Positions 16,379 through 44,459 of a DNA stretch of 64,000 bases are shown one piece after another; the stretch's first letter is position 1; the number at the start of each line of letters is the position of its first letter. This DNA is from a bacterium. Its GTDB lineage: Bacteria; Bacillota; Clostridia; Oscillospirales; Acutalibacteraceae. Below the pieces are notes generated by a model. It saw nothing but the letters and a program-made list of their open reading frames with translations, searched no databases and was not told the origin of the DNA. The position numbers and the translations under genes were made by a program. The stretch covers positions 1 through 64,000 of the forward strand of contig JALFLK010000010.1 in the NCBI GenBank assembly GCA_022774755.1, read 5' to 3'.

Positions 16379-17194
16379 ATGTTTGGTTTATGCTGTCCCG
16401 TTTGCGGAGAATTGCTTAAAAAATCCGATAAAGCTTATAAGTGCAAAAACAACCACAGCTTTGATATTGCAAGGCAGGGGTATGTGAATTTACTGCAAAG
16501 CGGTAAATCGAAGAACAAACGCAGAGGCGACGACAAGCTGATGATTGAGGCTCGCCGTGATTTTTTGAATAACGGCTATTACGAGCCTTTGCTTAAGGAA
16601 ATTTGTTCTTTTGCAGAAAAATACACTCCCGAAAACCCCTGTATTATTGACTGCGGATGTGGTGATTGCTATTATACAAGCAAGGTTTTTGATACGCTTA
16701 AACATAAAAATCCGAAAATTATAGCCGTGGATATTTCAAAGGACGCTCTGATTTGGGCGTCAAAAAGGAGCAGAGATTTGACATACGCCGCCGCAAGCGC
16801 TTTTTCTCTGCCCGTAGACGACTGTTCCTGCGATTTGCTGATGAATGTTTTTTCTCCGCTTGCTCCAAAAGAGTATGTAAGAGTGCTTAAAAGGGACGGT
16901 TGTATGCTGAGGGTTACTCCCCTTGAAAATCACCTTTTTGAGCTTAAAGAGGTAATTTACAGTAAGCCCTACAAAAATCCTCCCGATAATCTGAATATAG
17001 AGGGCTTCAGGCTTGTTGAAAGCAAAAATCTCAGGTATAAATCGGAAATTAAATCAAATGAGGATATAAAAAATCTTTTTAAAATGACGCCCTATTACTA
17101 TAAAACCTCCCGTGATGACCAATGCAAACTTGAAAGCGTTGACAGCCTGAAAGTAAGCTTGGAATTTTGCATCTCCGCCTACAAGCCGTTGTAG
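16379..17194 (+). CDS. rlmA: RlmA-like 23S rRNA guanine methyltransferase with N-terminal zinc ribbon
   Basis: CCPVCGELLKKSDKAYKCKNNHSFDIARQGYVNLLQ...GDDKLMIEARRDFL plus SAM motif IDCGCGDCYYT. Confidence 0.8.
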   Translation: MFGLCCPVCGELLKKSDKAYKCKNNHSFDIARQGYVNLLQSGKSKNKRRGDDKLMIEARRDFLNNGYYEPLLKEICSFAEKYTPENPCIIDCGCGDCYYTSKVFDTLKHKNPKIIAVDISKDALIWASKRSRDLTYAAASAFSLPVDDCSCDLLMNVFSPLAPKEYVRVLKRDGCMLRVTPLENHLFELKEVIYSKPYKNPPDNLNIEGFRLVESKNLRYKSEIKSNEDIKNLFKMTPYYYKTSRDDQCKLESVDSLKVSLEFCISAYKPL

Positions 17195-17203
17195 GCGGTT
17201 TTT
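17175..17203 (+). terminator. Terminator overlapping the 3' end of the rlmA-like CDS
   Basis: CCGCCTAC-AAGCCGTT-GTAGGCGG followed by TTTTT; the TAG stop lies in the stem. Confidence 0.8.
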
Positions 17204-17284
17204 ACATTATAGGAGATTGCTCGGCTGCGCCGGGACATAAAGGGCTGTTGTCAGCGAAAGCTTTCTGCACGAATTGCGTGTCGA
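17199..17284 (+). repeat. Dispersed intergenic repeat, copy 1
   Basis: TTTTTACATTATAGGAGATTGCTCGG...CTTTCTGCACGAATTGCGTGTCGA; about 75 of 86 positions match the reverse complement of 44091-44176 by manual ungapped alignment. Confidence 0.8.
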
Positions 17285-17382
17285 ATTTATGAAAAATAAA
17301 TATAATATATTGACTTTTTTCATAAAAATATCTATAATATAGAAAATGTTTTATAAATATTTTAGTAAAGGTGAGTGTTATT

Positions 17383-18528
17383 ATGAACAAATTTATGTTA
17401 AATGAAACATCATACCACGGCGCAGGTGCAATTTCGGCAATTCCCGAAGAAATTAAGAATCGTGGCTTTAAAAAGGCTTTTGTGGCAACCGATCCCGACT
17501 TGATTAAGTTCGGCGTTTCCGCCAAGGTGACGGATTTGCTTGACAAAGAAGGTATCCCTTATACCGTTTATTCCGATATTAAGGCAAATCCTACTATTGA
17601 GAATGTTCAGCACGGTGTAAATGCTTTCAAAGAATCGGGCGCAGACTGCATTGTTGCTATCGGCGGCGGTTCTTCTATGGATACTGCAAAGGCAATCGGA
17701 ATCATTATTACAAATCCCGAGTTTGCCGATGTTCGTTCTCTTGAGGGTGTTGCACTTACCAAAAATCCCTGCACGCCTATTATTGCCGTTCCCACTACGG
17801 CAGGCACAGCCGCTGAGGTTACAATAAACTACGTTATTACCGATGTTGAGAAAAAGCGCAAATTCGTTTGCGTTGACGCTCATGATATTCCGGTTGTTGC
17901 AGTAGTTGACCCGGATATGATGTCGTCTATGCCAAAGGGACTTACAGCCGCTACCGGAATGGACGCTTTGACCCACGCTATCGAGGGCTATATTACAAAA
18001 GGAGCGTGGGAGCTTTCGGATATGTTCCATCTTAAGGCTATTGAGGTTATCTCCCGTTCACTGCGTGACGCTGTAAACAACACAAAAGAGGGCAGAGAGG
18101 GTATGGCTCTCGGACAGTACATAGCCGGAATGGGATTTTCCAATGTGGGCTTAGGTGTTGACCACTCAATGGCTCACACCCTTTCGGCATATTACGATAT
18201 GCCTCACGGCAAGGCTTGCGCTACGCTTCTTCCTGCGGTAATGGAGTACAACGCTGAATATACAGGAGAAAAATACAGAGAAATTGCCCGTGCTATGGGC
18301 GTTAAGGGCGTTGATGATATGTCACCCGAGCAGTACAGAAAAGCGGCTGTTGACGCTGTTGCACAGCTTGCCGAAGATGTAGGAATCAAGACAAGTCTCA
18401 AGGGCGTTGTAAAGGAAGAAGACCTGCACCAGCTTGCTGTTGACGCATACGCTGACGCCTGCCGTCCCGGCAATCCCAGAGAAACAAGCGTTGAGGATAT
18501 CGAAGCTATTTACCGCAGTTTGATGTAA
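17383..18528 (+). CDS. fucO: Iron-containing alcohol dehydrogenase, lactaldehyde reductase (FucO)-like
   Basis: MNKFMLNETSYHGAGAISAIPEEI, GGGSSMDTAKA, DALTHAIEGYI, HGKACATLLP. Confidence 0.85.
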   Translation: MNKFMLNETSYHGAGAISAIPEEIKNRGFKKAFVATDPDLIKFGVSAKVTDLLDKEGIPYTVYSDIKANPTIENVQHGVNAFKESGADCIVAIGGGSSMDTAKAIGIIITNPEFADVRSLEGVALTKNPCTPIIAVPTTAGTAAEVTINYVITDVEKKRKFVCVDAHDIPVVAVVDPDMMSSMPKGLTAATGMDALTHAIEGYITKGAWELSDMFHLKAIEVISRSLRDAVNNTKEGREGMALGQYIAGMGFSNVGLGVDHSMAHTLSAYYDMPHGKACATLLPAVMEYNAEYTGEKYREIARAMGVKGVDDMSPEQYRKAAVDAVAQLAEDVGIKTSLKGVVKEEDLHQLAVDAYADACRPGNPRETSVEDIEAIYRSLM

Positions 18529-38460: not shown

Positions 38461-38557
38461 TGGTTTATCAGAAATTCTATTTTTGCGTTTTGCGCCAAAA
38501 GACACTCCGGAATTATGCGAGGCGGCCTGCTTAAAATAAAAAGCTTTTTGTCGTCAG

Positions 38558-38635
38558 AACTTTTCGCTCGGGAATAAAAGTCCCGAATCAGGTGAAGCTG
38601 TCTGCACGAAGCAAAAACCACGAAGCAAGAAAATT
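38558..38635 (+). repeat. Direct repeat unit 1 of a dispersed repeat family
   Basis: AACTTTTCGCTCGGGAATAAAAGTCCCGAATCAGGTGAAGCTGTCTGCACGAAGCAAAAACCACGAAGCAA; near-identical unit 89 bp downstream. Confidence 0.85.
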
Positions 38636-38646
38636 AGTACAGGCAA

Positions 38647-38723
38647 AACTTTTCGCTCGGGAATAAAAGTCCCGAATCAGGTGAAGCTGTCTGCACGAAG
38701 CAAAAAACACGAAGCAAAAAATT
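38647..38723 (+). repeat. Direct repeat unit 2 of a dispersed repeat family
   Basis: Near-identical to 38558-38635. Confidence 0.85.
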
Positions 38724-43099: not shown

Positions 43100-43201
43100 A
43101 GTAACAGCGGGATGCAAATTTTGTACCGCAGGCTACGCCTTTCGTTCCCTTGACAACTCCCCGTTCAAAGGACACTTTACGCACAAAATTCTACTCTGTG
43201 A
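43100..43201 (-). promoter_or_regulatory. THF riboswitch upstream of folT
   Basis: Minus strand ACAGAGTAGAATTTTGTGCGTAAAGTGTCCTTTGAACGGGGAGTTGTCAAGGGAACGAAAGGCGTAGCCTGCGGTACAAAATTTGCATCCCGCTGT matches the THF aptamer layout, including the GGGGA/ATCCC pseudoknot. Confidence 0.88.
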
Positions 43202-43262: not shown

Positions 43263-43970
43263 TTAAATTACGCCGTTAAAGGCAAGTACAATCAAAACGC
43301 AGGTGAGAAGCACCAGAGATCCGGTAATAATTGTGCCGGCTATTGCAGGGACGCCGCCGCTGTTTGAAGCCTTGCTTTCGGGAATCAGGTTTTGCTTTCT
43401 CAGGGCGCTTACAATGGGCTTATAAAGAACAAGCACAATACCGCCGTTGATTGCCGCTTTGAGCAGATTAAAGGGAATAAAAGCAGGAATCAGCAGAGAT
43501 ACTACCGCTTCTCTGGGCACATTCATATACATAGGGGTCACGATGTAATTCCACAGAACCATTGCGACGGTTGCTGCGGTGGTGCCAACGGCTAATCCAG
43601 CAACGGCAGAGGCGACAGTGCGCCTGTTTTTGTAAATCAGAGCCGCCGGACATACAAAGCACCCTGTGGCAATTATGTTCATAATACAGCCGATTATGCC
43701 TGTGTCGCTTATTGTAAACATCTCTACAAGGCATACGGCGACAGTCATTGAAATTCCCGAAAGAGGTCCGAAAATAAATGCGCCGATCATTATTATTGCA
43801 CATTTAAATTCTAAATCAAGAAAAGGCACGGCAGGAATAATAGGAAGCCTGAAAATCATTACAGCCACATACGCCATAGCCGTAATAAGCCCCAGAATCG
43901 CCAGCTTTTTCGTGCGGTAAGTGCGGTCCTCACCGGAAATCAGTTTTGGTTCTTTTGTTTTGCTAATCAT
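43263..43970 (-). CDS. ribU: Riboflavin-type ECF transporter S component
   Basis: Polytopic S-component pattern; FMN riboswitch in the leader supports riboflavin specificity. Confidence 0.82.
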   Translation of the reverse strand: MISKTKEPKLISGEDRTYRTKKLAILGLITAMAYVAVMIFRLPIIPAVPFLDLEFKCAIIMIGAFIFGPLSGISMTVAVCLVEMFTISDTGIIGCIMNIIATGCFVCPAALIYKNRRTVASAVAGLAVGTTAATVAMVLWNYIVTPMYMNVPREAVVSLLIPAFIPFNLLKAAINGGIVLVLYKPIVSALRKQNLIPESKASNSGGVPAIAGTIITGSLVLLTCVLIVLAFNGVI

Positions 43971-44090
43971 AATAAATCCTCCTTTGCGGTTGTCGACTTC
44001 AATCTTTGCAGACGGTGTTATAAAAGATTACACCCGCATATCCGACTGTTTCGGAGAGATTTTTACCGGAAAGTAAAAAAGTCGAGTACC

Positions 44091-44176
44091 TCGACACGCA
44101 ATCCGTGCAGACAGCTTTTGCTGAAAACAGCCTTTTATGCCCGAGCACAGCCTAGCAATTTCCTATAATGTAAAAA
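44091..44176 (-). repeat. Dispersed intergenic repeat, copy 2, in the ribU leader
   Basis: Reverse complement aligns without gaps to 17199-17284. Confidence 0.8.
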
Positions 44177-44198
44177 AAGCTCCGCTTTTAAGCGGAGC
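44172..44198 (-). terminator. Terminator of the FMN riboswitch expression platform
   Basis: CGCTCCGCTTAAAAGCGGAGC followed by TTTTTTT on the minus strand. Confidence 0.85.
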
Positions 44199-44245
44199 GA
44201 ATAAGTAAAACAAGCTGTGCCTTAAAAATTTGACAAAGCCGTTTA

Positions 44246-44357
44246 TCTTCTTTCATCCGGACTGTACCGTCGGCACCTGAATTTCACAGGTTCGGCAAGC
44301 AAAAGCTTGTTAGCGGGCTATACCGCCGGTGAGGAATTGCACCTCGCCCCGAAGACA
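44246..44357 (-). promoter_or_regulatory. FMN riboswitch (RFN element) upstream of ribU
   Basis: Minus strand CTTCGGGGCGAGGTGCAATTCCTCACCGGCGGTATAGCCCGC...GAACCTGTGAAATTCAGGTGCCGACGGTACAGTCCGGATGAAAGAAG. Confidence 0.97.
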
Positions 44358-44459
44358 ACCTAATATTATTATATGTTTTATTTTCGTGTTGTCAATATGT
44401 TTTTAAAAATAATATAATTCTGATAAAGAATTATTATGTGAGTAGCAAATACAATACTG

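Follow-up and report, generated by a model that had tools for sequence, protein, structure and literature searches.

A modular repeat of about 97 bp behind intrinsic terminators in gut Clostridia, probably a small mobile element

Short intergenic repeats and targets chosen by hairpins

Most small bacterial repeats follow no clear target rule, and group IIC introns select their target by a hairpin together with a T-tract. REP/BIME sequences are short intergenic repeats, rich in hairpins, that RAYT (Y1) transposases are believed to mobilise in trans, and integron cassettes with attC attachment sites stack in one orientation. Two pneumococcal families are comparable in the way they work. The BOX elements of Streptococcus pneumoniae are small, intergenic, non-coding and modular, with a variable number of modules and many copies, and they carry terminal inverted repeats, produce target duplications and occupy varied intergenic sites (PMC3049150). 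SPRITE elements of the same organism are reported to consist of a duplex of 18 bp and a long tract rich in T, to end in AAAA/TTTT, and to be enriched near gene 3' ends (PMC3049150).

The repeat described here was studied in a window of 64,000 nucleotides (the whole stretch of DNA analysed, from one contig of an Acutalibacteraceae assembly) and in the genome to which it belongs, the latter through searches and through the sequence surrounding the copies. It resembles BOX in being small, intergenic, modular, abundant and devoid of coding capacity, but, with BOX taken by its published description, differs in that its common form has no inverted ends and its target is the T-tract of a terminator. 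With SPRITE it shares a terminator-like hairpin, a T-rich tract and proximity to gene 3' ends, while a 6-bp 3' terminator stem, a conserved 5' tip, exact post-terminator insertion and stacking set it apart from SPRITE as described. Unlike REP/BIME, it follows terminators, is mostly 97 bp long with a fixed layout, and resides in a genome with no match to the Y1 profile. A target or attachment site chosen by its hairpin, and stacking in one orientation, recall group IIC introns and integron cassettes; however, the window's genome has no match to the reverse transcriptase profile, the copies have no Rfam intron match, no attC site was identified, and the repeat is far smaller than either and without cargo genes. 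Because one defining feature of each is missing, the repeat is not classed as a MITE (terminal inverted repeats are absent from the units of this genome, although it is short, non-coding and numerous as MITEs are, and may still be said to work like a MITE), a REP sequence or a group II intron derivative. Literature searches found no description of it. Its significance could lie in a sharp and testable target rule, namely hairpin plus T-tract in one orientation, in the apparent regeneration of its own target and in its span across gut Clostridia.

Anatomy and placement of the repeat

The two copies in the window, 17199-17284 on the forward and 44176-44091 on the reverse strand, align without gaps at 87% identity (75/86 positions, E=2.8e-24, BLAST within their own genome), just as a sequence-only reading had proposed, and both begin, as it had also placed them, inside the T-tract of a terminator (T5 and T7, respectively; Table 1). 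The 86-bp length given there proved too short, as the full unit measures about 97 bp, and the supposed end at GCGTGTCGA is not the end of the unit, since copy 2 and nearly all others run on through GGTACTCGAC-TTTTTT. In the genome-wide search suggested by that reading, the 1.88 Mb genome (35 contigs, completeness 99.8%) yielded 53 matches, of which 47 are near full length, far above what chance would give. The genes beside the copies are unrelated, so duplication of flanking genes does not explain them. The region upstream of the alcohol dehydrogenase gene, where copy 1 is situated, is not syntenic in the relatives shown.

Table 1. Features around the two copies of the repeat in the window
Feature	Position	Strand	Basis
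RlmA-like rRNA methyltransferase gene, upstream of copy 1	16379..17194	+	Pfam PF21302 E=1.8e-15, and methyltransferase domains
Host intrinsic-terminator hairpin before copy 1, 10 pairs, then T5 at 17199-17203	17175..17198	+	terminator scan
Copy 1, shortened, without terminal hairpin	17199..17284	+	comparison with other copies
Promoter-like site TTGACT-17-TATAAT for the Fe-ADH gene, close behind copy 1	17310..17338	+	consensus scan, 11/12 matches
Iron-containing alcohol dehydrogenase (Fe-ADH) gene, downstream of copy 1	17371..18528	+	Pfam PF25137 E=5.9e-63, PF00465 E=3e-49
FMN riboswitch aptamer, upstream of copy 2	44241..44360	-	Rfam RF00050, 110.9 bits
FMN riboswitch terminator hairpin, 8 pairs, then T7 at 44178-44172	44179..44198	-	terminator scan
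Copy 2, full unit: RYR and tip TTATAGGAAATTGC (from 44168) through own hairpin	44081..44171	-	44091-44176 of the earlier reading covers most
Own terminator-like hairpin of copy 2, GTCGAGGTACTCGAC, then T6 at 44080-44075	44081..44095	-	terminator scan; stem paired in 95% of cells, 67 units
Riboflavin ECF transporter S component gene (RibU-like), downstream of copy 2	43263..43970	-	Pfam PF12822 E=2.1e-16, PF07155

The layout of the unit can be written as [T-tract]-RYR-TTATAGGAAAYTGCTCGG ... TCGGGCA ... CAGC-loop-GCTG ... CTGTCTGCNCGRATTGCGTGTCGAGGYACTCGAC-TTTTTT, with its own terminator hairpin, GTCGAGGTACTCGAC-TTTTTT, as the usual 3' end; with few exceptions, 88 nt separate the tip from the right T-tract. 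The stem TGCTCGG/TCGGGCA is paired in 95% across units, and the 6-bp terminator stem in 95% of cells over 67 units; a third, small internal stem also pairs well. RNAalifold applied to the 67 units gave -4.2 kcal/mol and no strong consensus fold, the single helices nevertheless being well paired, and a search of Rfam 15 at the gathering score found no family overlapping the unit. An inverted counterpart of the left tip, TTATAGGAAAYTGC, was not found at the right end of units in the window's genome; some relatives are symmetric, with the inverted tip at that end.

Other modules, with the unit's ends around a different middle, are stacked at a spacing of about 96-97 bp. At three loci of the window's genome (L022, L046 and L055) a longer module of about 166 bp replaces the hairpin of some units and ends in the same 3' sequence; it contains CCGGGGAGATAGCTTCATCTAATTGG together with part of module B in inverted form, TGCCCGACCGTTTT. 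In the CAMFFI genome, three loci (L060, L068 and L098) hold an extra hairpin, GGACRACC-loop-GGTTGTCC, in mid-unit, as if a second palindromic repeat had been inserted into the element. A separate repeat at 38555-38721 of the window consists of two tandem copies of 78 nt, 96% identical and spaced by 89, whose core (CGCTCGGGAATAAAAG ... GCTGTCTGCACGAA) resembles the unit at 77% over 43 nt; it is probably a relative that has diverged and has no 5' tip.

Placement behind terminators is pronounced. Among 42 distinct tips read in the window's genome, 30 adjoin host sequence and 12 lie behind the hairpin of another unit, so that units stack in tandem, each behind the preceding one. A hairpin of at least 8 bp ends at the T-tract in 22 of the 30 host-flanked sites, compared with 18 of the 556 T5-8 tracts in the window; two more sites have hairpins with larger loops and six have no clear hairpin. 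Orientation relative to the terminator is constant at every site, and the upstream reading frame usually points towards the element. The terminators occupied include attenuators, namely those of the ribU FMN riboswitch, two T-boxes and the thrS leader. With about 50 copies in one orientation, and with the empty ribU sites described below, the earlier suggestion of preferential insertion after terminators is strongly supported. A THF (tetrahydrofolate) riboswitch was also recognized downstream of ribU, at 43103-43200 on the reverse strand (Rfam RF01831, 89 bits), about 1 kb from the FMN riboswitch.

Empty sites, junctions and distribution

At ribU, none of the 19 relatives that retain the FMN riboswitch terminator has the element behind it. 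Copy 2 is therefore, by comparison of the orthologous sequences, a lineage-specific insertion. Six genomes (G000, which is the window's genome, G029, G005, G189, D16-36 and Scybalomonas) have family members at the leader terminator of thrS, and about 20 others have none there. Because the interiors differ among the six, a recurrent target is favoured over an old site with many losses, for a locus that was chosen after it had already turned up. One count among the relatives is doubled, since G061 and G067 give several matches on identical contigs at identical coordinates and seem to be one genome.

At the junctions, the position of the tip start with respect to the T-tract hardly varies from site to site, and homology between dispersed sites ends at the unit ends. 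The left and right flanks have the same base behind the T-run in 48 of 58 non-tandem ends, against 41.8±2.0 when right flanks were shuffled within genomes (p=0.006); this agreement is not present in every genome and may partly stem from both ends being terminators. At one site, CTTTTTCATT is common to both flanks. That the T-tract and the next base are duplicated, or are common to both junctions, is thus supported by the flanks but not proven.

When GTDB genomes were scanned for the tip, 48 loci were found, most of them in genomes of the Oscillospirales and Lachnospiraceae types and nearly all behind terminators. These loci have the same layout with other interiors and other 3' hairpins, and the 5' tip recurs in distant Clostridia. 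Eight carrier genomes hold 31-83 tips each, against 0-3 for a reversed-pattern control. Carriage in number is patchy, with no more than two such carriers among 147 genomes sampled from the order.

The tip was not found in viral contigs, and a plasmid search with it gave matches at chance level only. A phage collection contained only short tip-like matches, and the four inspected proved to be unannotated human-faecal contigs, three of which show the tip followed immediately by its inverted copy behind a terminator. In L317-L319, records from human faeces labelled as phage, a perfect inverted pair, TTTTTTACTTTACAGGAAA-TTGC-TTTCCTGTAAAGTAAAAA(A), comes directly behind terminators; these unannotated contigs may be bacterial scaffolds mislabelled as phage.

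Possible mobilisation and rival explanations

In regard to the mechanism, we consider it likely that the repeat is a family of small, non-autonomous mobile elements of about 97 bp and modular build, which insert into terminator T-tracts in one orientation and whose 3' end regenerates the target; the repeat is probably mobile. The unit would enter the T-tract directly behind an intrinsic-terminator hairpin, including those of riboswitch and T-box attenuators, always in the same direction. Since a full unit brings its own hairpin and T6 at the 3' end, a hairpin-T6 site would be re-created at the far junction, making head-to-tail stacking possible. An enzyme acting in trans could recognise the conserved 5' tip together with the hairpin-T6 site. 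Copies would be tolerated because transcription stops before them and because each ends in a terminator. Behind attenuators, a copy would supply a second terminator between the switch and the gene, for which a regulatory role behind riboswitches is possible; such extra terminators behind riboswitches and T-boxes may retune the controlled genes. The repeat could also account for many unannotated double-terminator and repeat-rich intergenic regions.

Several candidate mobilisers were considered, and four of them rejected. The profile of Y1/IS200 (RAYT) transposases, PF01797, had no match in the window's genome or in G001, G060, G061 and G063, where past loss is possible, and the profiles of IS1182, IS110 and reverse transcriptase (PF00078) had none in the window's genome. 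Tyrosine recombinases gave 10 matches there, but the search does not discriminate, because they are present in every genome searched, carrier or not. No mobile-element gene is apparent beside 138 tips, as judged from the adjacent reading frames inspected by eye.

A further reading, which we regard as unlikely, is that a recombinase recognises any intrinsic-terminator hairpin and T-tract by structure, with T6 as the crossover or duplication, the units being gene-less, integron-like cassettes and terminators their universal attachment sites. Minimal cassettes ending in a terminator would then restore the target each time they insert and line up in one direction as arrays downstream of genes and of riboswitch or T-box attenuators.

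Alternatively, the repeat could act in cis as functional RNA or DNA, serving as a fail-safe second terminator that was brought in downstream of genes and attenuators and is kept by selection for what it does to read-through transcripts and not by its own mobility. Most full copies retain the 3' hairpin-T6, which recurs, with quite different sequence, in distant carriers; sites lie behind riboswitch and T-box terminators and recur at the thrS and ribU leaders; and the two partners of one pair in the small internal stem change together (C-G in 31 of 52 units, T-A in 14), though largely as a split between the window's genome and a second one. Nevertheless, nearly all relatives lack the element at orthologous sites, carriage is patchy within the order, neither a strong consensus fold nor an Rfam match was obtained, and the hairpin is lost in the copy behind the RlmA-like gene, so that we find this explanation quite unlikely. 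The functional 3'-end RNA element that the sequence-only reading had offered as its other suggestion is likewise not supported as the general case, given also that the transcript is expected to end before the copies; an action of the unit's own hairpin on transcripts that read through is possible.

Structure-directed site-specific recombination in the manner of integron cassettes, with circular units, T6 as a common crossover and no true target duplication, would agree with the hairpin-T6 at both junctions, with the same-orientation arrays, with a 3' hairpin that is constant in place and variable in sequence, and with the tyrosine recombinase matches. However, the presence of these enzymes in every genome, whether it carries the repeat or not, the lack of any circular form among the observations, and a partial agreement in the base past the T-tract, which fits duplication better, make it very unlikely.

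Finally, segmental duplication, unequal recombination or template switching at T-tracts, in place of a dedicated mobile element, is highly improbable, since, even if unequal recombination can enlarge tandem arrays and T-tracts offer microhomology, flanking genes and host hairpins vary by locus around a nearly constant tip start, dispersed sites lose homology at the unit ends, and ribU shows a clean insertion without neighbouring sequence.
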